A DNA stretch of 64,000 nt from Serinicoccus hydrothermalis. Lineage in GTDB: Bacteria; Actinomycetota; Actinomycetes; Actinomycetales; Dermatophilaceae. Location of the stretch: the NCBI RefSeq assembly GCF_001685415.1, contig NZ_CP014989.1, positions 1,302,001-1,366,000 of the forward strand, in the 5' to 3' direction. Below the pieces are notes generated by a model, which saw nothing but the letters and a program-made list of their open reading frames with translations, did not search any database and was not told the DNA's origin. Of the stretch, positions 539-64,000 are shown in pieces. The position numbers and the translations under genes were made by a program. Every line of letters begins with the position of its first letter. The first letter of the stretch is position 1.

Positions 539-627
539 GGAGGCGATTGACCAGGGTTCTGCGCGCCGGGTGGCTGGGACGGCGCGCGCGTCCGTCCCAG
601 CACGGACCGATGCGAGAGGCATACCCC

Positions 628-1905
628 GTGTCACCCGTCCAGTCCTACCGCCAGCTCTTCGCGCTCACCGGCCCGGTATACGTCCTGGTCGCCTTCGTCG
701 CGCGGCTCCCGCTGGCCATGTCCCAGATCGCCGCGCTGCTCGCCGTCTCCGGCGCCACCGGCTCCTACGCCGCCGGCGGCATGACCGCGGGTGCGCTCGC
801 CGTCGCCAACGCCGTCGGCTCCCCGGTCGCCGGGGCGCTCACCGACCGGGTGGGGCAACGCCCGGTGCTCGTGACCCAGAGCGTGCTCGGGACCCTCGGC
901 CTGCTGGCGCTGGCCGTCCTCACGCTCGGCGCCGGACCCGGCGAGCCGTGGTGGCCGCTGCCCGTCGTGGCCGCGCTCGCCGGGGTCTTCCTGCCGCAGG
1001 TGGGCACCATGGCCCGGGTCCGGTGGCGGCCGATCAGCGCCACCGGCCGACGGGGCGCCGAGCCGCGGCTCATGGATGCCGCCTTCTCCTACGAGGGCGC
1101 GGCGGACGAGGCGTCCTTCGTCCTCGGCCCGGCGGTCGTCGGCGTCATCGTCGCGATCGCCGCACCGGTGACCTCGCTCGTCGTCGCGGCCCTGCTCCTC
1201 GGCGCCTTCGGCACGTGGTTCGCCCTGCACCCGACAGTCACCCTCGTCGGCAGGGACACCGGCTCGCGCGCCGGCCGCGGCCGTCTGGTCACGCCGGCCC
1301 TGCTCGTGCTCGCGGGCGTCCAGCTGAGCATCGGCATGATCTTCGGGTCCATCCAGACCGGCACGTCGGTGCTCGCGACCCAGGCCGGGGCGCCCGGCCT
1401 CACCGGCCTGCTCCACGCCCTGCTCGGCGTCGGCAGCGTCCTGGCGGGGCTGGCCGTCGTGGCCCTGCCGGAGCACGTCGGGCACGTGCGCCGCCTGCGG
1501 ATCTTCACCAGCGCCCTGGTCGTGCTCGCGCTGCCGCTGCTGCTGGTCGGCTCACTGACCGCGCTGGCCGTGGCGCTGCTGGCCCTCGGCGTGGCCATTG
1601 CGCCGTCGATGATCACGACCTTCACGCTGGCCGAGCGCAATACCCCCGTGCGCCGGCTCGGTGGGGCGATGACCACGCTGGCGGCCACGACCGGCACCGG
1701 GTATGCCCTGGGCGCCGCCCTCGCGGGCCGCTTCGCCGACCTGGGCGGGCACCGTCCCGCCTTCGCCGTCACCATCGCCGCGACGCTGCTCGCCACGACC
1801 CTTGCCTGGACCGGGGCCGGTGCGGTGCGACGCGCCCTCGGTGCCGCCCGTCAGCCCGAGGCGAAGGACCAGGAGGCCCCGTCGCCGGTCGCTGCGACGA
1901 GCTAG
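628..1905 (+). CDS. MFS transporter
   Basis: A 425-residue integral membrane protein with twelve probable hydrophobic segments. The MFS loop motif between helices 2 and 3 reads GALTDRVGQRPVL (GxLxDRxGxRP type). It probably exports a small molecule; the substrate is not evident. GTG 628 is chosen over ATG 610 because GAGAGG at 614-619 stands eight bases before it, while no ribosome site precedes ATG 610. The heptamer GGCATAC (618-624) overlaps that ribosome site. The C-terminus ends in a short hydrophilic tail. The gene lies 140 bases after the MocR-type regulator on the same strand and ends three bases before the convergent sulfite-oxidase-like gene. Confidence 0.75.
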   Translation: MSPVQSYRQLFALTGPVYVLVAFVARLPLAMSQIAALLAVSGATGSYAAGGMTAGALAVANAVGSPVAGALTDRVGQRPVLVTQSVLGTLGLLALAVLTLGAGPGEPWWPLPVVAALAGVFLPQVGTMARVRWRPISATGRRGAEPRLMDAAFSYEGAADEASFVLGPAVVGVIVAIAAPVTSLVVAALLLGAFGTWFALHPTVTLVGRDTGSRAGRGRLVTPALLVLAGVQLSIGMIFGSIQTGTSVLATQAGAPGLTGLLHALLGVGSVLAGLAVVALPEHVGHVRRLRIFTSALVVLALPLLLVGSLTALAVALLALGVAIAPSMITTFTLAERNTPVRRLGGAMTTLAATTGTGYALGAALAGRFADLGGHRPAFAVTIAATLLATTLAWTGAGAVRRALGAARQPEAKDQEAPSPVAATS

Positions 1906-1908
1906 GGG

Positions 1909-5073: not shown

Positions 5074-5827
5074 TGTGGATCTCACTCGCCACAGCCACGT
5101 CGACGACGCCCGACCACACCCCCTCGGCCGCCGCGGCCGCCGCGCTCCGCTCCGCCCACGGCGGCAGGTGGGTGAGCAGCAGGCGTGCCACGCCTCCCGC
5201 CGCGGCGACGGCCTCGGCCGCGCGCTGCGGGGTCAGGTGTATGCCGCGCGGCGCGTCCTCGTCCGGCCCGAAGCCCGCCTCGACCAGGGCGAGGTCCGCA
5301 CGGGCGAGCAGCGGCACCAGCGCCTCGCAGCTGTCGGTGTCCCCCGTGTAGGCGAGCACGCGCCCGCCGGCCTCGACCCGCAGGCCGAAGGCCGGCACCG
5401 GGTGACGGACGGCATACGGCGTGAGCGTGAACGGCCCGACCCGCACCAGGGCGCGGTCGGCGAGCTCGCCCCACGCCAGACCCGGCATGGGCTCGTCGCC
5501 GCGCACGCCGTGCGCCCGCATCATCCGCTGCGCCACGCCCGGCGGACCCCAGACCGGCAGCTCGTCCGTGGCCGGCGCGGGGCCGTGCCGGCGCAGCACG
5601 TGCAGCCCGGTGAGGTCGAGGCAGTGGTCCGCGTGCAGGTGGGAGAGCAGGACCGCGTCCAGGGCCAGGGGGTCGGTATGCCGCTGCAGCGGCCCGAGCG
5701 CGCCAGGGCCGAGGTCGAGCAGCAGCCGCCACTCCCGCCGCCCGTCGTGCGCCGTGACGAGGTAGCAGCTGGCCGGTCCCTCCGGGCCGGGCACCGAGCC
5801 GGAGCAGCCGATGACGGTGAGCCTCAT
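5066..5827 (-). CDS. MBL-fold hydrolase resembling Rv1339 (cyclic-nucleotide phosphodiesterase-like)
   Basis: A 253-residue metallo-beta-lactamase-fold protein. It opens with MRLTVIGCSGSVPGPEGPAS. It has the metal motif LLSHLHADHCLDLTGL (HxHxDH), then AYTGDTDSCEAL (third ligand Asp) and LLLTHLPPW (last His). The order and wording match M. tuberculosis Rv1339 as I remember it, which is described as an atypical class II cyclic-nucleotide phosphodiesterase; RNase Z and arylsulfatase-like proteins are the other branch. In mycobacteria the gene sits next to murI, and here murI lies 5 kb away. ATG 5827 is chosen over 5845 because the domain starts there. The gene stands alone, with the CNNM pair downstream. 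Confidence 0.75.
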   Translation of the reverse strand: MRLTVIGCSGSVPGPEGPASCYLVTAHDGRREWRLLLDLGPGALGPLQRHTDPLALDAVLLSHLHADHCLDLTGLHVLRRHGPAPATDELPVWGPPGVAQRMMRAHGVRGDEPMPGLAWGELADRALVRVGPFTLTPYAVRHPVPAFGLRVEAGGRVLAYTGDTDSCEALVPLLARADLALVEAGFGPDEDAPRGIHLTPQRAAEAVAAAGGVARLLLTHLPPWAERSAAAAAAEGVWSGVVDVAVASEIHKV

Positions 5828-6884: not shown

Positions 6885-8329
6885 CGCTGGTCCTCCTCGG
6901 TCGCGGCGTCGGTATCGGTCTCGGTACGGGTCGCGGCGTCGGTCCCGTCCTCTGCGTCGTCCTCCGGCTCCGGGTCCTGCGCGAGGGCCCGCTCGACCAG
7001 CCGGACGCCCAGCAGGCTCGGCACGTGCCGGTCGATCTCGCGCACCTCGATCTCGACCGACCGACTGACGCGCTCCTCGAGCACCATCTCGGCGGGCGCC
7101 TCGGCGAGGTCGACGACGACGGTCTGGCCGACCTCCGGCAGGGCGCCGAGCTCGGCGATGACGAGGCCGGAGACCGTCTCGTAGTCGCCCTCGGGCAGGT
7201 CGTGGCCGAGCGCGCGCTGCAGCTCGTCGACGTGGACGTCGCCGTCGGTCCGCCAGAGGTGCTCGTCCTCGGCGACGATGCCCTCGGGCACCTCGTCGTC
7301 GTGCTCGTCGGTGATCTCGCCGAGCAGCTCCTCGGCCAGGTCCTCCATCGTGAGGACCCCGGCGAAGCCGCCGTACTCGTCCACGACGCAGGCCAGCTGC
7401 TGGCCCGAGCTGCTCAGCTCGGAGACCGCGTCCGGCAGCGCCATGAGGGTGGGCACGATGAGCGGCTCGCGCATGATCTGCCCGGCGTGCTCGGCGTCCG
7501 GCTGCCGCAGCAGGTCGACGAGGTTGACCACGCCGACGGGCTGACCCTGGTCGTCGATGACGGGATAGCGGGTATGCCCCTCCGCCATGAGCTGGCGCAG
7601 CTCCTCGACCGGGGTGTCGGGGCTGATGACGTCCACCCGCGAGCGGGGCACCTGTGCGTGCTCGACGTCCTGGTCGGGGAAGTCGAGGATCCGGTCCAGC
7701 AGCACCGAGAGCTCGGCCGGCAGGTCGCCGCTGTCCCGGGACTCGGCGACGATCCGCTCCAGCTCCTCGGCCGTGGCGGTGGTGTCGAGGTCGTGGATCG
7801 GCTCGATGCGCACCAGGCGCAGCAGCGCGTTGGCGGACCAGTCGAAGACCTTGATGAGCCAGCCGAAGACGGCGAGGTAGATGAGGGTGGACCGGGCCAG
7901 CGTCCGGGCGAGCGGGCCGCTGTTGGCGATCGCGAGGTTCTTCGGGTAGAGCTCGCCGAAGATCATCTGGACGACCGTGGCGATGGCCAGGGCAGAGACC
8001 GTGCCGACGGTGAGGCTGAGCGCCTCGGGCACACCGGTGCCGCCGAGGATGACCGCCAGGCCGCGCCCGACGAGAGGCTCCGCGACATACCCGACGAGCA
8101 GGCCGGTCACGGTGATCCCGAGCTGGGCGCCGGAGAGCATGAAGGACGTGCGGCGGGTCACCCGCAGGGCTCGCTCGGCGGCGTCGTCACCCCCTTCGGC
8201 CTCGGCCGCGAGCCGCAGCCGGTCGACCGACATGTAGGCGAACTCCTGGGCCACGAAGTAGCCGTTGGCCGCGATGATGAGGGCGATCGCGAGGATGCCG
8301 ACGAGCAGGAGCAGGATGGCGGTGGTCAC
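6881..8329 (-). CDS. CNNM/HlyC-CorC family membrane protein with CBS and CorC domains
   Basis: A 482-residue protein. It has a CNNM/DUF21 membrane domain (about 1-195; motifs SGAQLGITVTGLLVGY and FGELYPKNLAI), a CBS pair (about 210-340; TRYPVIDDQGQPVGVVNLVDLL and CVVDEYGGFAGVLTMEDL), and a CorC_HlyC domain (about 350-440; DGDVHVDELQRAL, YETVSGLVI). A Thr/Asp/Glu-rich tail follows. The likely role is divalent-cation efflux or membrane homeostasis, from family knowledge. The start is GTG 8329 with GGGAGG nine bases upstream. The 145 bases between it and pitA show no gene. It is the first gene of a two-gene operon. Confidence 0.87.
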   Translation of the reverse strand: MTTAILLLLVGILAIALIIAANGYFVAQEFAYMSVDRLRLAAEAEGGDDAAERALRVTRRTSFMLSGAQLGITVTGLLVGYVAEPLVGRGLAVILGGTGVPEALSLTVGTVSALAIATVVQMIFGELYPKNLAIANSGPLARTLARSTLIYLAVFGWLIKVFDWSANALLRLVRIEPIHDLDTTATAEELERIVAESRDSGDLPAELSVLLDRILDFPDQDVEHAQVPRSRVDVISPDTPVEELRQLMAEGHTRYPVIDDQGQPVGVVNLVDLLRQPDAEHAGQIMREPLIVPTLMALPDAVSELSSSGQQLACVVDEYGGFAGVLTMEDLAEELLGEITDEHDDEVPEGIVAEDEHLWRTDGDVHVDELQRALGHDLPEGDYETVSGLVIAELGALPEVGQTVVVDLAEAPAEMVLEERVSRSVEIEVREIDRHVPSLLGVRLVERALAQDPEPEDDAEDGTDAATRTETDTDAATEEDQR

Positions 8330-8474: not shown

Positions 8475-10046
8475 TCAGGGGAGCAGCATCCCGCGCAGCG
8501 CGAAGAAGAACAGGGCGGAGAGCAACCCCGCCACCGGGACGGTGATGACCCAGGCGGAGGCGATCTTGAGGATGTGCGAGCGGCGGACCAGCTGGCGCTT
8601 GAGCGCCTTGCGCAGCTTCTTGCCCTGCGCGGCGGTGATGACGGCCTCCGGGCCCATCTCCTGCAGCGTGTCCAGCATCCGCCGCTTGTCCTCGGGCCGC
8701 GCCTCCCGGAAGGCCTCGAGCATCCCCTCGACCTTGGCGAAGTCGGTGTCGTCGCGGTGGGCCCGGAGCACCTTCTCGATCGCCCGGTTCATCCGGTCGT
8801 CGAGGAACTCCCGGAGGAAGCCGACGCCGAAGATCCCGCCGAGCGCGACGTGGGTCGAGCTCACCGGCAGCCCGAGCTGGCTCGCGACGATCACCGTGAG
8901 CGCGGCCGCCAGCGCGATGCAGAAGGCCCGGGACCGGTCCAGCTCGGTGATCTCGCTGCCGACCGTGCGGATGAGCTTCGGCCCGAAGAGGGCCAGGCCG
9001 ACCGAGATGCCCAGGGCGCCGATGACGAGCACCCAGAGGGGGATCCCCGCCTCGCCCCCGGCCGCTCCCCCGTCGAGCACCTCGACGATGCCGGCGAGCG
9101 GGCCGACCGCGTTGGCGACGTCGTTGGCGCCGTGGGCGAAGCTGAGCAGCGCCGCGGCGCAGATGAGCGGGATGGTGAAGAGGCTGTTGACCCCCTCGGT
9201 GTCCTGGGTGAGACCGGGCGCGGCGCGGATGACCATCGGTCGGACGACGGCATACGTGATGACGGCGATGACGAGGCCGCCGAGCAGCGCGACCGGGAAG
9301 GAGATGCTGACGAGGTTGGACAGCCCCTTGAGGGCGAGGTAGGTGGCGAACGCCCAGGCCATGACGGCGATGAGCAGGGGCACCACCCGGGTCGCGGAGT
9401 CCACCGGCCGGTCGTGGAAGAGCACGGTGCGCTTGAGGAGGTAGAGCGTCCCGGCCGCGATGAGGCCACCGACCAGCGGCGAGATGACCCAGCTCATCGC
9501 GATGGAGCCCATGACGTCCCAGTTGACGACCGCCCAGCCGGAGGAGGCGACGCCGCCGCCGAGCACACCGCCGACGATCGCGTGGGTGGTCGACACCGGC
9601 GCACCCATGAAGGTCGCGATGTTGAGCCACAGCGCCGCCCCCAGCAGCGAGCCCAGCATCACCCAGACGAAGACCTGCGGGTCGGCGATGCTGTCCGGGT
9701 CGATGATGCCGCTCTTCACGGTTTCGACCACGTCGCCGCCGGCGATGATCGCTCCGGCCGCCTCGAAGACCGCCGCGATGCCGATCGCGGTGGCCATGGT
9801 CATCGCCATCGAGCCGACCGCCGGGCCGACGTTGTTGGCGACGTCGTTGGCCCCGATGTTGAGGGCCATGTAGCCGCCGATGACGGCCGCCGCGATGAGC
9901 AGGTATGCCTGTTCCACGTCCCCGAAGGCCGCGCCGGTGAAGACGATGACGCCGACGATGAAGAGGATGGCGACGCCGATCCGCCCCACCTCGCCTCGGG
10001 TGCTCCTGGTGGCCTTCTCCACGGGCCGGAAGTCCACCTGCGTCAC
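8475..10046 (-). CDS. pitA: PiT-family low-affinity phosphate permease
   Basis: A 523-residue transporter with the two inverted signature repeats of PiT carriers: NIGANDVANNVGPAVGS at about residue 63 and AHGANDVANAVGPLAG at about 310. It also has GAPVSTTHAIVGG and LPVSSTHVALGG. The central hydrophilic region and the basic C-terminal loop (GKKLRKALKRQLVRR) are typical. It would import phosphate (as metal-phosphate) with protons. The start is GTG 10046. No pit accessory protein (DUF47) gene is adjacent. A repeat resembling a Pho box lies 25-45 bases upstream, suggesting control by phosphate. Confidence 0.9.
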   Translation of the reverse strand: MTQVDFRPVEKATRSTRGEVGRIGVAILFIVGVIVFTGAAFGDVEQAYLLIAAAVIGGYMALNIGANDVANNVGPAVGSMAMTMATAIGIAAVFEAAGAIIAGGDVVETVKSGIIDPDSIADPQVFVWVMLGSLLGAALWLNIATFMGAPVSTTHAIVGGVLGGGVASSGWAVVNWDVMGSIAMSWVISPLVGGLIAAGTLYLLKRTVLFHDRPVDSATRVVPLLIAVMAWAFATYLALKGLSNLVSISFPVALLGGLVIAVITYAVVRPMVIRAAPGLTQDTEGVNSLFTIPLICAAALLSFAHGANDVANAVGPLAGIVEVLDGGAAGGEAGIPLWVLVIGALGISVGLALFGPKLIRTVGSEITELDRSRAFCIALAAALTVIVASQLGLPVSSTHVALGGIFGVGFLREFLDDRMNRAIEKVLRAHRDDTDFAKVEGMLEAFREARPEDKRRMLDTLQEMGPEAVITAAQGKKLRKALKRQLVRRSHILKIASAWVITVPVAGLLSALFFFALRGMLLP

Positions 10047-10634: not shown

Positions 10635-11455
10635 GCGGCGAGCCGCTCGTCGGCCCGCCCCACGAAGGCGCGGTGCACCTGCTCCACCTCCGGACCGAGG
10701 AACCGTCGCGCCAGGTAGTGGAAGCCGTCCGGGTCGCCGGTGGTCAACCACTGGTGGACCGGCTCGTTGTCCTGCGCCGCGAGCAGCCCGGAGTCGGTGA
10801 GCACCCGGAAGAGATCGGCCGCGGTCGCCGCCGCGGACGAGACGAGCTGGACCTGCTCGCCGAGGACGTACTGCAGCGCCTGCGTCAGCAGCGGGTAGTG
10901 CGTGCACCCCAGGATGAGGGTGTCCACGTCGCGCTCCTGCAGCGGCGCGAGGTAGTCGCGCGCCACCTCGATCACCTCCGGACCGCTCGTCACCCCCGCC
11001 TCGACCAGCTCGACGAAGCGCGGGCAGGCCTGGCTCGCGACGTGCACCGAGGGCGGGGCCGCGACGAAGGAGTCGAGGTAGGCCCGTGACTGGTGCGTCG
11101 CGGCCGTCGAGATCACCCCGATCTTCCCGTTGCGGGTCACCGCCATCGCGCGCCGCACGGCCGGCCGGATGACCTCGACGACGGGCACGGCATACCGCTC
11201 CCGGGCGTCGGCGAGCACCGCGGCGGACGCGCTGTTGCACGCGATGACCAGCGCCTTCACCCCGTGCTCGACCAGCCGGTCCAGGCACTCGAGGGAGAAC
11301 TCGCGGACCTGCGCGATGGGGCGCGGCCCGTAGGGGGTGCGCGCGGTGTCGCCGAGGTAGAGCACCGACTCGTGCGGCAGCTGGTCCAGCACCTCGCGGG
11401 CGACCGTGAGCCCGCCGAAGCCGGAGTCGAAGACCCCGATGGGCGCCTCGGTCAT
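10628..11455 (-). CDS. murI: Glutamate racemase
   Basis: A 275-residue racemase making D-glutamate for peptidoglycan. It has the two catalytic cysteines in VIACNSASA (about residue 74) and LGCTHYPLL (about 184), plus [12 protein letters not shown] at the N-terminus and [13 protein letters not shown]. Only the N-terminal start at ATG 11455 gives the normal length; upstream codons belong to the vapC region. The gene is tightly packed between toxin genes. It begins 13 bases after the stop of the minus-strand vapC and its end overlaps the plus-strand vapC by seven bases, so it may share a transcript with vapBC. Confidence 0.93.
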
Positions 11456-12962: not shown

Positions 12963-12968
12963 AGGGTA
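12963..12968 (-). promoter_or_regulatory. Leaderless -10 (TACCCT) of the FAH-family gene
   Basis: TACCCT on the minus strand, six bases before ATG 12956. It overlaps a copy of the dispersed heptamer (12966-12972). Confidence 0.55.
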
Positions 12969-12987
12969 TGCCGTCGGCGTCGCCTCG

Positions 12988-13323
12988 TCAGTGGTGGCCC
13001 GAGCCGGTGAGCTGCAGGCCGACGATGCCGCCGACGATGGCGACCAGACAGATCACCCGGGCCACCGAGACCGGCTCACCCAGGGCGAGGATCCCCCAGA
13101 GCGCGGTGCCGACGACACCGATCCCCACCCAGACGGCATACCCCGTGCCGAGCGGGATGGTCCGCAGCGACCAGCCGAGCCCGATCATGCTCGCGGCGAG
13201 CGCGACGCCGAAGAGCACGCTGGGCCACAGCTTGGTGAAGCCGTCCGAGGCGGTGAGGGCCGCGGCCCAGACGCTCTCGAGGACACCGGACAGGATGAGG
13301 ACGATCCAGGAGATGGCCACCAT
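12988..13323 (-). CDS. sugE: SMR-family exporter, SugE/Gdx type
   Basis: A 111-residue protein with four membrane helices. The glutamate essential to small multidrug resistance transporters is in LSGVLESVWAAALTAS (about residue 16), and the SugE-like signature IPLGTGYAVWVGIGVVGTALWGI follows. Gdx proteins export guanidinium, while other SMR members export quaternary ammonium compounds; sequence alone favours the SugE/Gdx branch. ATG 13323 is preceded by GGGGAGGG. A hairpin lies in the leader, but I do not see a guanidine riboswitch. Confidence 0.82.
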   Translation of the reverse strand: MVAISWIVLILSGVLESVWAAALTASDGFTKLWPSVLFGVALAASMIGLGWSLRTIPLGTGYAVWVGIGVVGTALWGILALGEPVSVARVICLVAIVGGIVGLQLTGSGHH

Positions 13324-13492: not shown

Positions 13493-14377
13493 GTGCCGAC
13501 CCCCACCACCGACCTCCAGCTCCTCGAGGCAGAGGTGTGGCGGGCGCGCGCCGGCGCGCACGCGGAGGCCGTGGACGCGCTGACCGCCGGCCGCCTCGCC
13601 CGCCAGGTGGAGGGGCGGACCCACCCCGTCGACGACTTCCTCTGGGAGTACTACGCCTTCCGCCCGGCGCAGCTCGCGCGCTGGCACCCCGGTCCGGGCG
13701 TCGGGCTCGCCGACGCCCACGAGCGCGCGGCGTGGAGCGGCTACCTCGTCGACGGGAGCGGGATGGCATACCTCGACGTGGCCGGCTTCGTGCGGCGCCG
13801 CGGCCGGACCGTCGCCTTCGTCCGCGACCTGCTGACCGCGACGCTGTCCCGGCCGGGACGCTTCGGCTGCTTCGGGCTGCACGAGTGGGCGATGGTCTAC
13901 CGCGCCGACGAGACGAGGCACGACTGGCCGCTGCGGCTGGGGCGCGAGGGCACCGACGCGGTGGTCGAGGGCCACCAGGTCGCGTGCTCGCACTTCGACG
14001 CCTACCGCTTCTTCACCCCGGAGGCCGCACCGCGCAACGCGCTGCGCCCGACCCGGGAGAGCCAGGTCGAACACGAGCAGCCGGGCTGCCTGCACGCAGG
14101 GATGGACGTCTACAAGTGGTGCTTCAAGCTCGCCCCCGCGATGCCCAGCGACCTCACCCTCGACGCCTTCCTGCTCGCCCGGGACATCCGCGAGCTCGAC
14201 ATGCGGGCCGCGCCCTACGACCTGCGCGCGCTGGGCTACGAGCCGGTCCGGATCGAGACGGCCGAGGGCAAGCGCGAGTATGCCGCCGCCCAGCGGGACT
14301 TCACCCGCCGGTCGAACGCGCTGCGCCAAAAGCTGCTGGGGGCGCTGGACGCGCTCCCGGCGACGCCGGCGAGGTGA
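13493..14377 (+). CDS. Conserved actinobacterial protein of unknown function
   Basis: A 294-residue soluble protein. Proteins of this type are, as I recall, often labelled 3-methyladenine DNA glycosylase in actinobacteria, but I see no helix-hairpin-helix or Gly-Pro-Asp motif to support that. Distinctive segments are HPVDDFLWEYYAFRPAQLARWHPG near residue 40, CFGLHEWAMVYR near 122, HFDAYRFFTP near 160, and GCLHAGMDVYKWCFKLAP near 195, the last with conserved Cys/His/Tyr/Trp that could form an active site. There is no signal peptide or membrane segment. GTG 13493 is chosen because a TAGGCT hexamer lies eight bases upstream. It is divergent from sugE and convergent with ilvE. Confidence 0.7.
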   Translation: MPTPTTDLQLLEAEVWRARAGAHAEAVDALTAGRLARQVEGRTHPVDDFLWEYYAFRPAQLARWHPGPGVGLADAHERAAWSGYLVDGSGMAYLDVAGFVRRRGRTVAFVRDLLTATLSRPGRFGCFGLHEWAMVYRADETRHDWPLRLGREGTDAVVEGHQVACSHFDAYRFFTPEAAPRNALRPTRESQVEHEQPGCLHAGMDVYKWCFKLAPAMPSDLTLDAFLLARDIRELDMRAAPYDLRALGYEPVRIETAEGKREYAAAQRDFTRRSNALRQKLLGALDALPATPAR

Positions 14378-15500: not shown

Positions 15501-15767
15501 TCCGCCTGACGGGACGTCACGACCAGTCGGTTGGTTGACGCAAGGTCAAGTGAGGGGCGGCTGACCTGCGGGTATGCCGGTCCCGCGCCGCCCGCACGGT
15601 GGTGCCTCACCGTGTGCCGAGGCATGTGTCACACGCGTGCTCCTGGGCACACCCGGGACACCAGGAAGCGCACGACACCGCGCACAAGCGTGCCCGGCCG
15701 CCCCGGCCCCGTCCTCTCCCCGGTCCCTGGGCACCCGGCCGGACCCGGCGGGCCCTGGCGGCCCTCG

Positions 15768-23885: not shown

Positions 23886-23893
23886 ACCGGCGC

Positions 23894-31497: not shown

Positions 31498-33708
<2,211 letters not shown>

Positions 33709-41797: not shown

Positions 41798-41890
41798 TGG
41801 GTGAGAGGTCTGCGGCAGGCCGGGTGAGATCCCCGCCGGGTGAGATCTCTGCGGTTTGCCGGGGGCCGTATGCCGCAGCCCGCCGTGGCC

Positions 41891-50922: not shown

Positions 50923-53900
50923 TGGCCACCCTCACCCCGACGTTCGAGGAGTTCCTGCCCGCCTGGGTCGCCCGGCAGCGCTGGTACCGCGGCAAGCAGG
51001 CCGGGACCCCCCGGCTGCGGCACGGCGGCAGCATCCGCTGGCAGGACCCCTTCGGCGAGGTCGGCATCGAGGACCACGTCCTCGTCGACGAGTCCGGTGC
51101 GGAGCCGATCGTCTACCAGGTGCCCCTCACCTACCGCGCCGAGGCGGTGCCCTTCCTCGAGCACGCCCTGGTCGCGACCGCTGAGCACGACGAGCTGGGC
51201 ACCCGCTACGTCTACGACGCGACGCACGACCCGGTCTTCGCGCACGTGCTGCTCTCGGAGATGTATGCCGAGCACGACGTCCCGGCGGCGCAGGCGCGTC
51301 GCCTCGCGCCCGCGGGGCCCGCACCGGCGCTCGCCGCCTCCCGGGTGCTCATCGGCGAGCAGTCCAACACCTCGATCATCGTCGACATGCACGGCGAGGA
51401 CCGGCCGGTCATCATCAAGCTGTTCCGGGTGCTGGCCGAGGGGGAGAACCCCGACGTCTCGGTCCAGACCGCGGTGAGCCGGGGTGGCTCGCGGCAGGTG
51501 CCGGACCCGGTCGGCGCGGTCGAGGGTCGCTGGGTCTCCCCCGACGGCGCCGAGGCGCACGGGCACCTCGCCTTCGCTCAGGAGTTCCTGCCCGGCACCG
51601 AGGACGCATGGCGGCGCGCGCTCGTCGCGGCCGGGGCGGACGAGGACTTCACCGAGGGCGCCCGCTCGCTGGGCGCCGCGACCGCCACGGTGCATACGGT
51701 GCTGCGGGAGGCCTTCGGGAGCCACGCCGGCGCCGGCCGCCGTTCCGAGCTGGTCGCGCAGATGCGCACCCGCGCCGAGCAGGCCTTCCGGGACGCCCCC
51801 GAGCTGGAGGCATACCGCGACCCGGTGCTCGCGATGTATGCCGAGCTCGAGTCCTCCGACCTGCCCGACCTGCAGCGGATCCACGGCGACTACCACCTGG
51901 GCCAGGTGCTCGACGCGCCCGACCGTGGCTGGGTGCTCCTCGACTTCGAGGGCGAGCCGCTGCGGCCGCTCGCCGAGCGCACCGAGCCCGACCTCGCGCT
52001 GCGCGACGTCGCCGGCATGCTCCGGTCCTTCGACTACGCGGCGGCCTCGGCCGCCCTCGCCGGCGTCGGCGACCGTGGCGCCTGGGCGGCCGCGGCCCGT
52101 GAGGCCTTCCTCGAGGGCTACGCGAGCGGGTCCGACGACGACCTGCGCGCCGGGCAGGCGTCGCTGCTGGCGGCCCTGGAGCTCGACAAGGCGCTCTACG
52201 AGGTCAGCTACGAGGCGCAGAACCGCCCCGACTGGGTGGTCATCCCGGTCGCCGCCGTGCAGCGCCTCCTGGGCGCCGCGGGCGACGTGCCCGAGACCGG
52301 CACGACGAAGGAGACCCCTGTGAGCACGAGCGACACCCCCGAGACCCGCACGGCCGACACGCCCAGCACGAGCGACGAGGCCCCTTCCCGACCGGACACC
52401 CCTTCCGTCCGGCCCGAGGCGGACGCAAGGGGTGTCCGGTCGGACGAGGAGGCGCCTGGTGCAGGGCCCAAGGCGGACGCACGGGGTGTCCGGTCGGAGG
52501 ACGTCCCAGAGCCTGAGGATGTCCCGGAGCCCGACGGCATCGCCGACGACTACGGCGCCTCGCTCATCGAGGTCGAGCGGCACGACGGCCCGCTGGACCA
52601 CCCGCCGACCGGGGACCGGCGCGCGGCCAGCGGCGCCGCCCCGGAGTATGCCTCCGGCCGCGGTGCCAGCGGCGGCTACCCGCACGCGCCGGTGCCGCCG
52701 CCGGAGGAGATGCAGGTCGGCACCCTGCCGCCCGGGCGACGCACCCGCGAGGAGCTCGAGCTCGGCCCGCGCCCCGGCCGCTCTGCCAGCGGCTGGTCCG
52801 GGGAGCCACAGGGCGACCCCGAGGTGCGGCACGCCGCGGCCTGGGACGAGGCCACCGGGTCCGAGCAGGTCGTCACCTCCCGACCCGGTGACCGCACGCC
52901 GCTGGAGGAGCCGAGCGCCCCGCCGGCCCCCCACACGCTGCCGCTGGACCTGGACGAGGCGGCCGACGTCGTCGACGGCCTGCACCGCACGCCCCAGGTG
53001 CTCCTGGGGGCGCACGCCCACGAGGGCCACGTCACGGTCCGGACCCTCCAGCCCGAGGCCACCGATGTCGAGGTGCTGCTCGCGGGCGGTGACACCGTCC
53101 CCATGACGCACGAGACCGGGGGCATCTGGGTCGCCGTCCTCGACCGCGAGACCGTCCCGGCCTACCGGCTCAAGGTGTCCAGCGGCACCGGTTCCGCCGT
53201 CGTGGACGAGGCATACCGGCACGGGCCGAGCCTGGGCCAGACCGACCTGCACCTCATCGGTGAGGGCCGCCACGAGGAGCTGTGGCGGGCGCTCGGCTCG
53301 CACGTCATGACGGTGCGGGACGAGCTGGGGCAGGTCACCGGGACCCGTTTCGCGGTGTGGGCGCCGCACGCCGAGGCGGTGCACGTCGTCGGCGACTTCA
53401 ACGGCTGGAACGGCGCCACCCACGCCCTGCGCGCGCACGACGACTCCGGTGTGTGGGAGCTCTTCGTGCCCGGCGTCGCCGAGGGTGCGCACTACAAGTA
53501 CGACATCACCGGCCCGGACGGCGTGCGCCGCGCCAAGGCCGACCCCATGGCACGGGCCAGCGAGGTCCCGCCCTTCAACAACTCGGTCGTCACCGTGAGC
53601 ACCCACCGCTGGGGCGATGCCGCGTGGATGGCGCAGCGCGCCGCCGGGGACGTCCACCACGGCCCGATGAGCATCTACGAGGTGCACCTGGGCAGCTGGC
53701 GCAAGGGTCTGGGCTACACCGAGATCGCCGACCAGCTCGTGCCCTACGTCGCCGAGATGGGCTTCACCCACGTCGAGCTCATGCCCGTCATGCAGCACCC
53801 CTACGGCGGGTCTTGGGGCTACCACGTCACCGGCTACTACGCCGCGGACAGCCGGTTCGGGCACGAGGACGGCCTGCGCCACCTCATCGACCGGCTGCAC

Positions 53901-55481
53901 CAGGCCGGGGTCGGCGTCATCCTCGACTGGGTGCCAGGGCACTTCGCCACCGACCCGTGGGCGCTGGCCCGCTTCGACGGCACCCCGATCTACGAGCACC
54001 CGGACCCGCGCAAGGGCTGGCACCCGGAGTGGGGCTCCTACATCTTCGACTTCGGGCGGCCGGAGGTGCGCAACTTCCTCGTCGCCAACGCCACCTACTG
54101 GCTGGAGGAGTTCCACGCCGACGGGCTGCGCGTCGACGGCGTCGCCTCGATGCTCTACCTGGACTACTCCCGCGAGGAGGGCCAGTGGGTGCCCAACCGG
54201 CACGGCGGCCGGGAGAACCTCGAGGCCGTGGCGCTCCTGCAGGAGGCCAACGCGACGGCATACCGGCGCTCCCCGGGCGTGGTGATGATCGCCGAGGAGA
54301 GCACCTCCTGGCCGGGCGTCACCGCCCGCACCGACGAGGGCGGGCTGGGCTTCGGCTTCAAGTGGAACATGGGCTGGATGCACGACACCCTCGGCTATCT
54401 CGGCGCCTCCCCCTTCGCCCGCGCGCACCAGCACCACGCGCTGACCTTCTCCCTCGTCTACGCCTTCGGCGAGAAGTACATCCTGCCGATCAGCCACGAC
54501 GAGGTCGTGCATGGCAAGGGCTCGCTCGTGCGCAAGATGGCCGGCGACGCGTGGCAGAAGTTCGCCACCACGAGGGCCTTCCTCGCCTACCAGTGGAGCC
54601 ACCCGGGCAAGCAGCTGCTCTTCATGGGCTCGGAGTTCGCGCAGGCGCGCGAGTGGGCCGACGGCGGGTCGCTGAGCTGGGAGCTCACCGAGCAGCCCGA
54701 GCACGCCGGGATCCAGAGGCTGGTCCGCGACCTCAACCGCCTGTATGCCGAGCTGCCCGCCCTGTGGCAGATCGACCACCACGAGGACGGCTTCAGCTGG
54801 CTGGACGCCAACGACGCCGGCCGCAACCAGTACTCCTTCCTGCGCTGGGGCAACGAGGGCGACCTCGGCCCGGGGCTGCGCCCGGTCGTCGCGGCCGTGG
54901 TCAACTTCAGCGGCATACCCCACCATCAGGTGCACGTCGGACTGCCCTACGGCGGCCGCTGGCGCGAGGTGCTCAACACCGACGCCGAGGACTACGGCGG
55001 CTCGGGCCAGGGCAACATGGGCTCGGTCGAGGCGGTCGACCACCCGCACCAGGGCCAGCCCTGGTCGGCGCTCATCACGGTCCCCCCGCTGGGCGCGGTC
55101 TGGCTGGTGCCGGACCCCGTGGACGAGCAGGACCTCACCCGGCGCTCCGAGCCGGAGACCGCCGCGGCCACGACGGCCGAGGAGACCGGCGAGGTCGTCA
55201 CCGGGGCGACGGAGGAGGACACGGACGTGGACAGCACCGACAACGGCACCGAGGACGGCGCCGAGGGCCTCGACGAGGGCTCCACCGAGGAGCTGGCCCA
55301 CGGCGAGCTCGCCCCGGAGCACCCCTTCGTCGCCGAGGGTGGCCAGCCGATCGACCACGAGGAGCGCACGACGGTCGCCACGCTGGACGAGAGCGACGGC
55401 GAGGCGGCCGGCCAGGACTTCTCGAGGTTCGGCGTGGCCCACCGGTCGGACGGCGACGAGGCCGCCGACGAGGAAGAGTGA
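50922..55481 (+). CDS. Maltokinase-branching enzyme fusion (Pep2/Mak + GlgB)
   Basis: One open frame of 1519 residues. Residues 1-460 are a maltokinase: [28 protein letters not shown] (ATP Lys), [12 protein letters not shown] (catalytic Asp about 321) and [11 protein letters not shown]. Residues 460-670 are an Asp/Glu/Pro-rich, probably disordered linker containing a palindromic repeat. About 680-1400 is GlgB: a first CBM48 ([21 protein letters not shown]), a second ([20 protein letters not shown]), [25 protein letters not shown] (nucleophile Asp about 1071), MIAEESTSW, and [14 protein letters not shown] 120-residue acidic tail ends it. It would make maltose-1-phosphate and add alpha-1,6 branches. 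AAGGAG plus GTG 52320 may also give a separate GlgB. ATG 50922 overlaps the treS stop. Confidence 0.88.
52308..52322 (+). promoter_or_regulatory. Internal ribosome site and in-frame GTG start for GlgB
   Basis: AAGGAG (52308-52313), six bases, then GTG (52320-52322) in frame within the fusion. It is a textbook initiation site at the maltokinase/linker border. A separate GlgB of 1053 residues could start here. Confidence 0.5.
52388..52497 (+). repeat. Palindromic repeat inside the coding linker
   Basis: A 24-base arm (52388-52411, beginning CCGACCGGACACCCCTT) faces its inverse (52420-52443) across eight bases, with one mismatch and 17 perfect terminal pairs. A third arm at 52474-52497 repeats the second with one change. 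It encodes linker sequence such as [14 protein letters not shown] and [10 protein letters not shown]. Reading frame is kept. It resembles a protein-coding palindromic element inserted in a disordered region. Confidence 0.85.
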
Positions 55482-55494: not shown

Positions 55495-57168
<1,674 letters not shown>

Positions 57169-58235: not shown

Positions 58236-59336
58236 CTACTCGCCGGAGGCGTCCACCAGCTGCTCGGAGGCGGCGATCATCTCCGGCTTGAACTCGACGT
58301 CCTCCGAGGGGGCCCGCATCGCGACGAAGACCGACGTGCGCAGGGTGGCCTGCGAGGTCAGCACCTCGGTGTCCTGGAAGGCGCGGAAGGCGTCCGGGGT
58401 CGTCAGCTGCGTGCCCGCGTCGACCACGAACTGGGTGTCGCGCAGCAGCGAGCCCATGACGAAGCCGGTGCCGTCCTCGAACAGCAGGGTGGTGACGTCG
58501 TCGGAGACGAGCCAGTTCTTCTCCCGCAGCTCGGCCTGACCGTCGAGCTGCGCCGCCTGCTCCTCCGCGGCGTCGCGGACGGCGGGGGCATACCCGTGGG
58601 TGCGGTAGTCGGGGACCTCGTCGGGCTGCGGCCACTCGGTGTAGGCACCCACCGACTTGAGCAGCTCGCGCGGCTGCATCGTCAGCTCACCCTTGCCCTC
58701 GCGCAGCACGGGGCTGCCCGCGGAGCGGCCGTCGAAGGTCGGGACCTCGGTGCCCGGCAGCATCGCGGCCTCCCAGGTGATGCGGAAGTCCTCGGTCTCG
58801 CCGCTGTCGCTCGTGAGCAGGTGCAGGCGCGGCGCCCCCTCCTCGGGGACGCTCTGCACGAGCAGGTAGGCGGGGGTCTCGCCGTCGTCGCGGCTCACCG
58901 CGAGCACGATGGGCTCGACCGGGTTCTCCTCGAGGTCGACCTCCGCGGGCTCCCCGTCCACGCCCTCGAGGCGGTCGGCCGCCTTGTGCGCGCGCAGCGC
59001 GGTGCCGGCGAGCGAGGCCTCCTGGGCCTCCTGGATGTCCTCGCCGTCGCCCTGGTCGGCGCGGACCCGCTCGGTCAGCACCTCGGTGGCGACCTCCTCG
59101 GCGTCCTCCAGCGAGATCGCGCCCGCGTCGGCCTCGGTCGTCATCTCGACCGTGGTCTCGCTGGCGTCGTCGGCGGCGGCGGCCTCGGTGGCCGTGGCAG
59201 TGTCGTCGGCGGTGGCGGTGGTGCCGCCCTGGTCGGCACCCTCGGTCGGGTCGCCGGCCGTCTCGTCGCCGGAGCACGCGGCAAGAACGAGGGCCGAGCT
59301 CAGCGTGGCGGCGGCGGTGATCCTGGAGAACTTCAT
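58236..59336 (-). CDS. Lipoprotein of unknown function
   Basis: A 366-residue lipoprotein. Signal peptide MKFSRITAAATLSSALVLAAC with the lipobox LAAC (Cys 21), then an Asp/Glu/Thr/Ala-rich low-complexity linker (about 22-80). The globular part has no motif that I can name; it shows alternating beta-type segments (EPIVLAVSRDD, PAYLLVQSVPEEGAPRLHLLTS, FVMGSLLRDTQFVVDAG) and resembles the generic secreted actinobacterial lipoproteins. ATG 59336 is chosen because the signal peptide starts there and TACCAT lies six bases upstream. Confidence 0.78.
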   Translation of the reverse strand: MKFSRITAAATLSSALVLAACSGDETAGDPTEGADQGGTTATADDTATATEAAAADDASETTVEMTTEADAGAISLEDAEEVATEVLTERVRADQGDGEDIQEAQEASLAGTALRAHKAADRLEGVDGEPAEVDLEENPVEPIVLAVSRDDGETPAYLLVQSVPEEGAPRLHLLTSDSGETEDFRITWEAAMLPGTEVPTFDGRSAGSPVLREGKGELTMQPRELLKSVGAYTEWPQPDEVPDYRTHGYAPAVRDAAEEQAAQLDGQAELREKNWLVSDDVTTLLFEDGTGFVMGSLLRDTQFVVDAGTQLTTPDAFRAFQDTEVLTSQATLRTSVFVAMRAPSEDVEFKPEMIAASEQLVDASGE

Positions 59337-59373: not shown

Positions 59374-60144
59374 TCAGCGATCTCCCAGGGAGGTCTCCGC
59401 ATCGGCGTCGCGCCGGTCCCGCGTCCGCACCCCGTCCTCGTCGGCCGGACCGCTCACGATCCGCTCCAGGACGAGGTAGAGACCATAGATGGCGAGCAGG
59501 GCGGCCGTCACGTGCAGGAGCAGCGCCAGGGCCACACCGATGATGACACCGGCCCGCCAGTACCTCCCCCAGGAGACCGCGAGCACGCTCGGGACGAGGA
59601 CGGCGAAGAGCGCGCCCAGCGCCAGCTCGGCCGGCCAGGGCCGGTCCCCCATCCACGGCACGACGTCCCACACGTCGAAGAAGTCGAGGGTCGCCGCCGT
59701 GCCGAGCAGGGTCACGAGGCCGAGCAGGCCGACCAGCTGGATGCGCTTGACCAGGTCGCCGCTGGCCCACAGCGTGCTGATCGTCACCGCGGCCCACATG
59801 AGCCAGGCCCGGACCCGGCCGGTCCCCAGGGCGATCATCGCCGTGCGAAAGATCCGGTCCGCCTCGTGCCGCCGGACCGGCGGGCCCTCATGGCTCCCCG
59901 GCCGGACCAGCGCGTCGTGCAGGACCGCCGCGGGCAGGAAGTCACCGCTCTTGGGCACCAGCCAGGTGAACAGGTCCGGGACCGAGGCGAAGTCGGTGAC
60001 GAAACCGGCGGGGACGACGAGGGCGTCGGCATACTCCGGCGTGGTGTAGCCGACCGCGCGCAGCAGGGTGAAGTCCCGACCGTCGACGCTGCGCAGCTCC
60101 AGCCGGAGCGGACCACCAGTCTCGACGTCGAAGAACTCGCCCAT
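59374..60144 (-). CDS. DUF1353 protein with C-terminal membrane helices
   Basis: A 256-residue protein. The first 110 residues are a DUF1353 domain (VVPAGFVTDFASVPDLFTWLVPKSGDFLPAAVLHDALV, then EADRIFRTAMIALG), a small domain best known from phage genomes, with conserved Asp/His. Four or five hydrophobic segments follow (AWLMWAAVTISTLWA, LVGLLGLVTLLGTAATL, LALGALFAVLVPSVLAVSW, AGVIIGVALALLLHVTAALLAIYGLYLVL). No phage genes are near, so it seems to be a chromosomal membrane version. The function is unknown. Confidence 0.75.
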   Translation of the reverse strand: MGEFFDVETGGPLRLELRSVDGRDFTLLRAVGYTTPEYADALVVPAGFVTDFASVPDLFTWLVPKSGDFLPAAVLHDALVRPGSHEGPPVRRHEADRIFRTAMIALGTGRVRAWLMWAAVTISTLWASGDLVKRIQLVGLLGLVTLLGTAATLDFFDVWDVVPWMGDRPWPAELALGALFAVLVPSVLAVSWGRYWRAGVIIGVALALLLHVTAALLAIYGLYLVLERIVSGPADEDGVRTRDRRDADAETSLGDR

Positions 60145-61131: not shown

Positions 61132-61736
61132 CCTCCGACGGTAGCGCTCCGGTCCGACCTCCCCGGCGCGGGGCGGACCATGCGCAGCTCGACGACGCCC
61201 TCGTGGCCGTCCAGGCCCTCCGTGCCGTCCGGCGCGAAACCCTGCTGCTCGTAGAAGCGGACCGCGCGGTCGTTGCCCCGCGCCACCCAGAGGTATGCCG
61301 CGCGGTCGCCGAGGGCGCGGGCCAGCAGCTCCTGGGCGAGGCCGGTGCCGTGGAGCTCCGGCGCGACGTTGAGGGTGAAGAGCTGGTGCGGGGTGGGTGG
61401 GTCCTCGTCCCGGGCCGGGCCGTGGAGGCAGAAGCCCGCGGGCTGCCCGTCGCTGGTCGCGAGCAGGATGCCGCGGCCGTCGTCCGGCACCGCGCCGGCG
61501 TCGTAGGCCGCGACCACCTGGTCCCACATCGGTCGGAACTGCTCGGGGTCGAGGGCGTCGACGACCTCGTCGGACATGATCCCGCGGTAGGTCGCCGCCC
61601 AGACCCGGGCGTGCAGCGCCGCGATTCCCTCGGCGTCCCCGGCCCGCGGCTCCCGGAGCTCCCAGGTCGCACGGACCGGCTCCTGCGACCCGTCGCGTCC
61701 CGAGGTGTACCCCGGGGGCTGTGCGGGCTCGCTCAT
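61128..61736 (-). CDS. GNAT-family N-acetyltransferase
   Basis: A 202-residue acyltransferase. A short hydrophilic start is followed by the GNAT fold: REPRAGDAEGIAALHARVW, HQLFTLNVAPELHGTGLAQELLARAL (motif A with the acetyl-CoA loop), and YLWVARGNDRAVRFYEQQGFAPDG (motif B). The substrate is unknown. ATG 61736 lies 17 bases from the thiolase stop, suggesting an operon thiolase-GNAT-pip. Confidence 0.85.
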   Translation of the reverse strand: MSEPAQPPGYTSGRDGSQEPVRATWELREPRAGDAEGIAALHARVWAATYRGIMSDEVVDALDPEQFRPMWDQVVAAYDAGAVPDDGRGILLATSDGQPAGFCLHGPARDEDPPTPHQLFTLNVAPELHGTGLAQELLARALGDRAAYLWVARGNDRAVRFYEQQGFAPDGTEGLDGHEGVVELRMVRPAPGRSDRSATVGG

Positions 61737-61753: not shown

Positions 61754-62959
61754 TCAGCGCTGCGGGACGGTGACGATGAGGGCGTCGCCCTGGCCGCCGC
61801 CGCCGCAGAGCGCGGCCGCGCCGGTGCCGCCGCCACGGCGCTGGAGCTCCAGCGCGAGGTGCAGCAGGATGCGGGCCCCGGACATCCCGATCGGGTGGCC
61901 GAGCGCGATGGCCCCGCCGTTGACGTTGACCTTGTCCTCGTCGAGGCCGAGCTCGGCCACGGAGGCCAGGCCGACGGCGGCGAAGGCCTCGTTGATCTCC
62001 ACGAGGTCCAGGTCGGTCGGCTCGATGCCCAGCTTGGCGCAGGCGGCGGCGATGGCGCGCGCCGGCTGGCTCTGCAGCGTGGAGTCCGGCCCGGCCACCA
62101 TGCCGTGGGCGCCGATCTCGGCGATCCACTCCAGACCCAGCTCCTGGGCCTTGGCCTTGCTCATCACGACGACGGCGCACGCGCCGTCGGAGATCTGCGA
62201 GGCCGAGCCGGCGGTGATCGTGCCGTCCTTCGTGAAGGCCGGCCGCAGCTTGCCCAGGGACTCGGTGGTGGTGTCGGCCCGGATGCCCTCGTCGGTGCTC
62301 ACGGTGACCGGGTCGCCCTTGCGCTGCGGGATCTCGACCGGGACCACCTCGTCGGCGAAGAGGCCCTCGTCCCACGCGGCGGCCGCCCGCTGGTGGCTCC
62401 GTGCGGAGAAGGCGTCCTGCTCCTCGCGGGTGAAGCGACCCTCGTCGTCGGCGCTGTTGGCGGCCTCGGTCAGCCCGCCCATCGCCTGGTCGGTGAAGAC
62501 GTCCCAGAGCCCGTCGTAGGCCAGGTGGTCGCGCATCGTCACGTCGCCGTACTTGAAGCCCGAGCGCGACTTCTCCAGCAGGTGCGGCGCCTGGCTCATC
62601 GACTCCTGGCCCCCGGCGACGACGACCTCGACCTCGCCGGCCCGGACGAGCTGGTCGGCGAGCGCGATCGCGTCGATGCCGGACAGGCAGACCTTGTTGA
62701 TGGTCAGCGCGGGGACGTCCATGGGGATCCCGCCGGCGACGGCCGCCTGGCGCGCCGGGATCTGCCCGGCCCCCGCGGTCAGCACCTGGCCCATGATGAC
62801 GTAGTCGACCTGGTCCCCCGAGACCCCGGCGCGCTCCAGCGCACCGGCGATGGCGTGACCCCCGAGCTCGGCCCCGGACAGGCCGGAGAGCGACCCGAGC
62901 AGCCGCCCCATCGGGGTGCGGGCTCCCGCGACGAGGACGGACGTGGTGGCTTCGGACAT
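61754..62959 (-). CDS. Acetyl-CoA acetyltransferase (thiolase)
   Basis: A 401-residue thiolase. The nucleophile Cys is in [18 protein letters not shown] (about 91). [13 protein letters not shown] and [19 protein letters not shown] carry the His, and [14 protein letters not shown] the second Cys. It condenses or cleaves acetyl-CoA units in fatty-acid or short-chain acid metabolism, in keeping with the crotonase and etfBA genes in the window. ATG 62959 has GGAGGAG about ten bases upstream. A heptamer copy sits 30 bases upstream within GACAGGTATGCCTGTC, an inverted repeat. Confidence 0.94.
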
Positions 62960-63035
62960 GGGCTCGACTCCTCCGGCGACGGTGACAGGTATGCCTGTCT
63001 CGTCACTGTAACCGGGCCGCGCGCTTGCCCCCGGG

Positions 63036-64000
63036 TCAGCCTCCGTGGACCACCTGGCCGTCGAGCACCGTCGCGCTCACCAGGGTGTAGCGGAACCGGC
63101 GGGCCCGCTCGGCGCTCGTGGCGGCCTGCGCCAGCGGGTCCTGCTCGAGCAGGACCAGGTCGCCGCGGTCGCCCTCGCGCACGCGCTGCCCGTCCACCGA
63201 GGCGGCCAGCGCCTCCCGCGGCGTGATCTCCTGCTCGGGGTGCCAGCTCTCGCCGTCCTCCGGGCCGCGGTGCACCGCCGCGGCCATCGCCAGCCAGGGG
63301 TCCAGCGGCGACACCGGCGCGTCCGAGCCCAGCGTCAGCTCGATGCCCGCGTCGAGGAAGCTGCGCAGGGTGAAGGTCCGGTCGGTGCGGTCGGGCCAGC
63401 ACTGCTCGGTGACCGAGCGGTCGTCCAGCAGGTGCGCCGGCTGCACGCTGGCCACCACCCGCTGGGGCAGCTCGGCCCAGCGCCGCACGTCCAGCGGGTC
63501 CACGAGCTGGGCGTGCTCCACCGACCCGACGGCGCCCGTGGCCGCGAAGGCGTCGAGCACGGCGCCCACCGCGGCGTCCCCGATGGCGTGCAGCGCGGCC
63601 CGTAGCCCCGCACCCTTCGCCCTCGCCAGCAGCTCGGTGAGCTCCTCCACCGGGTAGTTCGCCGCCCCGGCGGGGTCCTTGAGCAGGTGACCGTCGGCAT
63701 ACGGGGCGCAGCACCACGCCGTGCGCGTGTTGAGCGAGCCGTCGGTGATGATCTTCAGCGGGCCCATCGTCACCAGGCCGTCGGTGGCCCGGATGGGCGC
63801 GCCGGTGCGCAGCCCGGCGGCGATGGCGTCCTCGAGGCCCTCGGGGTAGACGCCGGTGCGCGCGCGGAGCGGGGGCATACCCTCGGCGGTCCGCTCGCGC
63901 CACTGCTCCCACGGCCGCCCGAACTCCAGATCGACGATCCCGACCACGCCGAGGGTGTGCGCGGCCTGGATCGCCCGGGAGACGGCGTACTCCGACTCCT
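63036..64000 (-). CDS. Amidohydrolase (YtcJ-like), C-terminal part (partial)
   Basis: The 3' part of a gene that begins beyond the window; the frame is open to base 64000 ([17 protein letters not shown]). It matches the C-terminal half of the amidohydrolase-3 TIM barrel: [33 protein letters not shown] (metal His), [10 protein letters not shown] (metal His), and [13 protein letters not shown] (metal Asp). The N-terminal metal-binding HxH would lie outside. Substrate is unknown; family members hydrolyse N-acyl or formamide-type bonds. Confidence 0.87.

Follow-up and report, generated by a model that had tools for sequence, protein, structure and literature searches.

Introduction

The closest described counterparts of the motif reported here are the DNA uptake sequences (DUS) of the Neisseriaceae and the uptake signal sequences (USS) of the Pasteurellaceae. 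Excerpts from the literature give 1,471 and 1,965 copies for known uptake sequences (PMC1939737), a spacing of ~1,000 bp (PMC7811141) and, for the DUS, clade-specific dialects together with motif-free genomes (PMC3630211); uptake in Haemophilus is reported in the source text at hand to be orientation-independent. Here, we analysed the heptamer GTATGCC (GGCATAC on the opposite strand) in a window of 64,000 nucleotides, bases 1,302,001-1,366,000 of the 3,597,394-base single-contig genome of Serinicoccus hydrothermalis, in the rest of that genome and in its relatives. Like the DUS and USS as portrayed in these excerpts (PMC3630211, PMC1939737, PMC7811141), GTATGCC occurs at about one copy per kb in both coding and non-coding DNA, has dialects and is missing from motif-free relatives. 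The initial annotation of the window knew of no description of such a motif in actinobacteria, and none was found in the open-access papers searched, bioRxiv preprints being outside the coverage. The two orientations of GTATGCC are spaced independently of each other, a new property, and the word is probably a polar self-tag for DNA exchange.

Results

GTATGCC was found in 74 exact copies in the window, 37 on each strand, exactly as the initial annotation had counted. In 100 dinucleotide shuffles of the window the mean was 2.25 copies and the maximum 7, and a second-order Markov model predicted 3.4; the excess first claimed therefore held, whereas the five or six copies then expected by composition were a generous figure. 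Among window 7-mers seen at least 12 times, only the Tyr-Tyr codon word CTACTAC was more strongly enriched than GTATGCC. A whole-genome count, which had been proposed as a check, gave 1,573 forward and 1,604 reverse copies, 3,177 per 3.6 Mb, against 80 + 69 = 149 copies of the reversed word CCGTATG, showing that the excess is not limited to the window. For comparison with relatives, most of which were sampled at 20-100 kb, genomes were classed as motif-rich (at least 150 copies per Mb) or motif-poor (at most 50 per Mb), with cut-offs set in the present analysis; GTATGCC is about 50-fold denser in the studied genome than in motif-poor relatives.

A 464-kb sample of the same genome, comprising the window and twenty 20-kb stretches, contained 416 copies, 346 of them inside genes predicted with a simple codon-usage finder rather than taken from annotation. 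The largest coding class was Tyr-Ala (166/346), the point that speaks for an artefact of codon usage or of amino-acid pairs. This explanation was refuted by a codon-preserving background, since synonymous shuffling within genes (60 runs) left 31.6 coding copies (standard deviation (sd) 4.5, maximum 41) against the 346 real ones. The refuting result named in the initial annotation, a lack of excess over a background of this kind, was thus not obtained. Moreover, rare codons were recruited into the word (TAT 166/268, ATA 41/55, CAT 32/153), and the intergenic density of 1.18 per kb exceeded the coding density of 0.84. An artefact of this kind has a practically negligible probability. In the window, 34 of 44 TAT codons fell within GTATGCC, roughly bearing out the first impression that TAT occurs almost only there. 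All six classes of codon phase and orientation were represented in both the window and the sample, which, with the intergenic copies, agrees with the earlier statement that copies occur in every phase and between genes.

We defined a silent slot as a coding position where GTATGCC can be written with the protein unchanged. In the 464-kb sample, 345 of 879 silent slots were filled (Tyr-Ala 165/332, Met-Pro 23/35, His-Thr 32/56, Gly-Ile 41/126, Ala-Tyr 76/300 and Val-Cys 8/30), compared with 6 of 693 in motif-poor stretches totalling 500 kb. Four other rich genomes had 30-40% of their GTATGCC slots filled, and 45-57% of those for the octamer GTATGCCG; small samples from the own genus gave 19-49%. 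Of 63 copies in four Serinicoccus loci, 49 were intact in the studied genome, and of 103 copies in the studied genome, 49 were intact in these loci, compared with 35-40% of all aligned 7-mers; the four loci are related to one another and not independent.

The single-transition relative GTACGCC, which the initial annotation had seen about six times, had 7 copies in the window, where motif-poor relatives would predict about 17, and 48 in the 464-kb sample, where 157 were expected. This depletion favours a modification or mutation bias, in which a methylated or hypermutable GTACGCC changes to GTATGCC, or in which the word is a restriction-modification or defence site. However, the GTACGCC deficit (109) amounts to only about a quarter of the GTATGCC excess (408), and the words that relatives often have at aligned places, CTACGCG, CTACGCC or GCACCCC, differ from GTATGCC by two or three changes. 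These data indicate a cumulative pressure toward the whole word rather than a one-step mutation. A mutation bias would also not produce the orientation-specific spacing described below, which extends over hundreds of bases, and a modification site alone, one of the roles first listed, explains neither this spacing nor the saturation of the slots. We consider such a bias or site very improbable.

The spacing of copies depended on their orientation. Over 21 sampled stretches, the strand counts were more even than chance (chi2 7.6 on 21 degrees of freedom (df)), and strand imbalance in the 110 rich genomes had a variance 0.63 times the binomial value. Adjacent copies were opposite in 252 of 395 cases in the studied genome (p = 4.6e-8) and in 316 of 498 in other rich genomes (p = 2e-9), the latter including 18 own-genus loci that overlap in part by orthology, among themselves and with the window, and hence are not independent; with the own-genus loci left out, the other genera gave 209 of 335 (p = 6.7e-6). 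A metagenome-assembled genome (MAG) of the Nocardioidaceae gave 46 of 70. Tested group by group, alternation reached significance for G164, G145 and the own-genus set but not for G103 (p = 0.17), G079 (p = 0.07) or Arsenicicoccus (p = 0.48, 18 pairs). Same-orientation pairs in the studied genome were depleted up to about 800 bp, the ratios to expectation rising bin by bin from 0.15 through 0.45 and 0.53 to 0.80, and opposite pairs scattered about 1, at 0.52 below 100 bp and 1.56 at 100-200 bp there and at 0.67-1.20 in the other genomes.

This behaviour was peculiar to the word. Among 455 7-mers of similar frequency, only GTATGCC and two words overlapping it showed orientation spacing of this kind, and none of the 452 unrelated controls matched it, the next-best alternation being 0.571 against 0.638 and the next-best same-pair ratio 0.80 against 0.62. 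Random sampling from the silent slots, which preserves gene orientation and codon opportunity, gave an alternation of 0.527 (sd 0.027, maximum 0.593, 200 runs) against 0.633 for the real copies. Slot filling as a function of the distance to the nearest same-orientation copy was 12, 20, 38, 47, 55, 53 and 30% in bins of up to 150, 300, 600, 1,000, 1,500 and 2,500 bp and beyond; when distance was taken to the nearest opposite copy, the values were 33, 50, 41, 48, 44, 45 and 14%. Motif-poor islands may account for the lower values in the final bin of both series. Four other genomes showed a similar, noisier same-orientation trend, and in G079 opposite copies within 300 bp were scarce too (1/21 slots filled).

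In a repulsion model in which the value of a second copy falls as exp(-d/l), the same-orientation l in the studied genome was 350 bp (250-500), with a likelihood ratio of 36 versus no repulsion, and the opposite-orientation l was 50 bp (10-50), with a ratio of 5.6. In other genera, the values were 400 bp (250-600; ratio 30) and 5 bp (1-10; ratio 0.3), respectively. Copies are thus redundant almost exclusively with others on their own strand, and the reader of GTATGCC therefore appears to be polar, most simply reading one strand. This polarity is not tied to replication direction, because both strands are balanced in the sampled stretches.

The word has a core and dialects. When the 464-kb sample was compared with poor relatives, variants changed at positions 1-5 were not raised, except GTAGGCC (1.9-fold, 126 against 67.7). 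Variants at the last two positions were raised, namely GTATGTC 4-fold, GTATGAC 3.6-fold, GTATGGC 2.4-fold, GTATGCG 3.3-fold and, on a small base, GTATGCA 13-fold. The core of the word is therefore GTATG. The dialect is GTATGCCG in most genera sampled and GGTATGCC in the studied genome, where G follows the word in 60% and precedes it in 70% of copies. In four other genera (100 kb each), G came next in 90-99% of copies, with the consensus GTATGCCG(C/T)G. The Nocardioidaceae bin MGR_bin180, from what we take to be a different order from the studied genome, has the dialect GTATGMCG: GTATGCCG occurred 41 times and GTATGACG 31 times in 112.6 kb, against 3.2 and 2.4 expected from a Markov model. A second Nocardioidaceae bin contained 11 and 15 copies, respectively, in 52.6 kb; both being metagenome bins, contamination is possible.

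Of the 186 genomes of the family (GTDB Dermatophilaceae, as the names of relatives suggest), the rich class comprised 110 from 32 genera (163-1,383 copies per Mb) and the poor class 57 from 19 genera (5-44 per Mb), and 19 lay between; one of the latter (G038, 55 per Mb) was grouped with the poor in the occupancy and residue comparisons. LigA of the studied genome is 86-87% identical to that of Serinicoccus and 79-81% to that of Ornithinimicrobium; species of both share its genus group, and Arsenicicoccus bolidensis represents another rich genus. Outside the family, none of 272 genomes from 18 other families of the order was comparable, the top ratio to the reversed control being about 2.9 (judged by eye, for genomes with at least 50 copies), and a scan for GTATGMC in 364 genomes of the class, likewise judged by eye, revealed no other comparable family. 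In that scan one non-family genome (G783) was mildly raised (346 against 92 for the control, ratio 3.8). Outside that scan, the word was raised 3.1- to 4.0-fold in three Nocardioidaceae MAGs looked up by name. GTATGCC thus belongs essentially to one family. In the Arsenicicoccus group G005, G006 and G009, the reversed control CCGTATG was itself raised (764-1,014 copies); part of this may come from copies in the CCGTATGCC context, because 62% of 21 copies have C as the base before the word.

Three genera contain both rich and poor members, and rich and poor genomes were intermingled in a phylogeny of 31 ComEC proteins, which required 6 changes, at least 4 of them forced by well-supported branches. 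The trait therefore changed repeatedly, most simply by loss, and the poor lineages would have lost it; a single origin of tagging is not proven. Tagging is dispensable on an evolutionary time scale. We searched the poor genera for a replacement word, obtaining 20 stretches and leaving out 2 (3,956 and 347 bases). Enrichment of 6- to 8-mers in the remaining 18, from 10 groups, gave codon-like words and no replacement, at 20-80 kb per poor group, a depth at which a weakly enriched word would be missed. Two candidate dialects were rejected. ACAAGTA, found 13 times on one strand between bases 13,798 and 19,634 of one poor-genus locus (L027; genome G089, contig C1), often as pairs 30 bases apart, is a local repeat cluster. 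The abundance of GTACGCC in some Aeromicrobium loci accompanies a general excess of the palindrome CGTACG, which occurred 47 and 48 times in L094 and L095 (Aeromicrobium sp. Root344 and 9AM, 22 kb) and 9-19 times in six other Aeromicrobium loci of similar length.

One 20-kb stretch of the studied genome (L158; 2,140,001-2,160,000) had a lower GC content (0.682) and a single GTATGCC copy. By eye, and with no family search made, it encodes transposase-like, MerR-like, mercuric-reductase-like and ArsR-like proteins and is probably a mobile metal-resistance island. On this one stretch, recently acquired DNA seems to be untagged by GTATGCC.

These distributions also bear on the possibility of a site bound by a protein that organises, segregates or replicates the chromosome. 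Polar motifs such as the FtsK-orienting polar sequences (KOPS) are known, and the genome-wide spread and same-strand spacing of GTATGCC would suit such a site. Nevertheless, the local balance of forward and reverse copies leaves no polarity from origin to terminus and so contradicts the replication-oriented signal that a segregation site, as first suggested, would be. Moreover, whole genera lack the word, as do individual members of rich genera, and the small samples searched showed nothing in its place; the island-like L158 is nearly word-free yet still replicated and segregated. We regard a site of this kind as very improbable, marginally more so than the modification or mutation bias above.

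The polarity of the word, its independence of replication, its dispensability and the apparent lack of tags on acquired DNA are together the features expected of a self-recognition tag that works in the exchange of DNA or the processing of its ends. Within this shared core, we tentatively favour GTATGCC as a genome-wide polar self-recognition signal for homologous DNA exchange acting through uptake or entry processing, a reading that we prefer to a Chi-like signal while giving it somewhat less than an even chance. The process would be DNA uptake by natural transformation, in which DNA enters as a single strand via ComEC, the word would be read on single-stranded DNA, and a dedicated reader of it would exist. 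Strands bearing the word might be favoured, e.g. by being bound, pulled in or protected, and biased transfer would spread copies through the population until filling reaches about half of those silent slots that have no same-orientation copy within roughly 0.4-1 kb. An excerpt of PMC7811141 describes ComEC as passing a single DNA strand, from which strand-specific redundancy would follow. The density of the word, its dialects and its motif-free relatives, all as in the DUS, also speak for this reading.

The machinery of the studied genome is compatible with transformation. It contains comEC with a gene for a ComEA-like helix-hairpin-helix protein upstream, as seen by eye in 29 of 30 other ComEC loci, together with ATPases of the T2SSE family. 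Classical type IV pilins (PF07963) were found in G054, G086, G180 and G182, and full-length T2SSE matches (E below 1e-124) in G050, G086, G180 and G182, which suggests that classical type IV pilus systems exist in few members only. Micrococcus luteus, according to a portion of PMC4322843, possesses comEA/comEC and depends on Flp/tad genes for its transformation; given the T2SSE ATPases, a Tad-type receptor for GTATGCC may be possible.

Several observations weigh against uptake or entry processing. ComEC (180/186 family genomes), the Tad-like T2SSE ATPase (185/186) and DprA (80/80 of a subset) are present in rich and poor genomes alike, the studied genome included. Classical PF07963 pilins occur in 4 of 186 family genomes and not in the studied one. 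By gene presence, neither these four nor RecC or the PDDEXK_1 nucleases separate rich from poor, and the comparison with competence genes proposed initially thus identified no reader. None of 777 columns in 61 ComEC sequences cleanly separated the two classes; the best was found in 27 of 31 rich against 9 of 27 poor sequences (p = 3.4e-5, uncorrected for kinship). A relaxed constraint on ComEC in poor lineages was rejected, as no difference appeared once seven control proteins were taken as the reference. The literature search, in which Serinicoccus alone was queried by name, yielded no report of competence in the group. Finally, GTATGCC shows orientation-specific exclusion in contrast to the orientation-independent uptake of Haemophilus, and in the excerpts at hand polarity is not a trait of known uptake sequences.

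In the rich-poor comparison, the mean ratio of nonsynonymous to synonymous substitution rates (dN/dS) of ComEC was 0.24 versus 0.33, from 8 and 6 genera, respectively; a Mann-Whitney test on pN/pS gave p = 0.08. Two ComEC fragments (G015 and G114) were excluded from this ratio and were mostly gaps in the column comparison. A threonine of ComEC that split the first 30 sequences was rejected after it failed with 30 more.

Alternatively, GTATGCC might be a Chi-like signal read on one strand by an end-resecting helicase-nuclease, most plausibly AdnAB, with each orientation serving breaks on one side and hence needing a spacing of its own. The polar reading and the separate spacing of the orientations are as a Chi should show, and a pair of AdnAB-like genes was syntenic in 20 of 20 loci inspected (11 rich, 9 poor), which had been picked by their PDDEXK_1 match. 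The name AdnAB-like is based on this match, size and gene order, with no family search of the pair, and one gene in G114 is cut by a contig end. However, the pair is equally present in poor genomes without clearly separating residues: 0 of 296 and 1 of 375 rich-conserved columns, the one weakly, separated the 11 rich from the 9 poor. Gene content at a Tad-like/helicase locus, named from sequence with no family search, was also similar in 11 rich (8 from one genus) and 9 poor genomes. RecC, the Chi reader of RecBCD, was present in 49 of the 110 rich genomes and in 35 of the 57 poor ones and, given this mismatch, is not the reader. RecC is patchy as a whole (89/186 family genomes) and splits within genera, e.g. 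G008 versus G005-G007 and G009. Scattered loss without a visible replacement word, in the small samples searched, is odd for an essential repair cue. Chi of E. coli shows strand skew, and GTATGCC shows none. Of the candidate roles first listed, an uptake or Chi-like signal thus fits best, with the RecBCD type of Chi set aside by the distribution of RecC. A Chi-like signal is possible but rather unlikely. The response of AdnAB to Chi is stated as unknown in the part of PMC4824097 consulted.

All copies in the window are exact matches. On the forward strand they lie at 1701-1707, 5239-5245, 5676-5682, 7572-7578, 9903-9909, 12966-12972, 14278-14284, 15572-15578, 17394-17400, 19225-19231, 19346-19352, 22980-22986, 24910-24916, 26467-26473, 27458-27464, 29340-29346, 29611-29617, 31019-31025, 31396-31402, 36200-36206, 37354-37360, 37873-37879, 38668-38674, 40532-40538, 41868-41874, 42113-42119, 44966-44972, 45586-45592, 48233-48239, 49584-49590, 51263-51269, 51836-51842, 52646-52652, 54743-54749, 56817-56823, 61293-61299 and 62989-62995. 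The copies on the reverse strand lie at 618-624, 2050-2056, 5411-5417, 9249-9255, 11189-11195, 13135-13141, 13765-13771, 14726-14732, 17197-17203, 18144-18150, 19309-19315, 22116-22122, 23881-23887, 25537-25543, 25849-25855, 26035-26041, 28233-28239, 28572-28578, 32839-32845, 35041-35047, 36930-36936, 38162-38168, 40038-40044, 40331-40337, 41071-41077, 42356-42362, 44117-44123, 45389-45395, 46285-46291, 51809-51815, 53210-53216, 54257-54263, 54912-54918, 58587-58593, 60028-60034, 63696-63702 and 63874-63880.

Discussion

Our findings make DNA self-recognition in actinobacteria directly testable. They supply a motif, its dialects, sister species that are rich and poor in it, and a quantitative prediction, namely an effect in one orientation with a range of about 0.4 kb. 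The word might also serve as a tag for transforming little-studied genera.

Compared with the DUS and USS, GTATGCC shares enrichment in both orientations across the genome. Transformation genes are present in the studied genome as they are in those systems, but they are found in poor genomes too and so are not diagnostic. The receptor in those systems is a type IV minor pilin, whereas few members of this family have PF07963 pilins. The USS, as described in the excerpts at hand, has overlapping terminator-like pairs; GTATGCC is without a clear excess of close inverted pairs, those within 100 bp numbering 11 against 21.2 expected in the studied genome and 24 against 20.7 in relatives.

With the Chi sequences of RecBCD and AddAB, GTATGCC has in common that it is a short, non-palindromic, over-represented word whose spacing points to polar action. 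It differs from them in its mismatch with the distribution of RecC, its lack of strand skew, its occurrence against codon usage, its loss or absence in many relatives and its far higher density than in motif-poor relatives. KOPS and architecture-imparting sequences (AIMS) have a strand skew by replichore, unlike GTATGCC, whose strands agree across the sampled stretches. HIP1, the highly iterated palindrome of cyanobacteria, resembles it in the genome-wide iteration of a short word; HIP1 is a palindrome, whereas GTATGCC is not, and its two orientations behave independently. Taken together, we lean, with slightly better than even confidence, towards GTATGCC as a third independent case of genome self-tagging, this one beyond the Neisseriaceae and Pasteurellaceae, in Gram-positive Actinobacteria, and read on a single strand instead of as a duplex whose orientation is irrelevant, as either an entry signal in ComEC-type transformation or the first regulatory, Chi-like sequence of an AdnAB helicase-nuclease.

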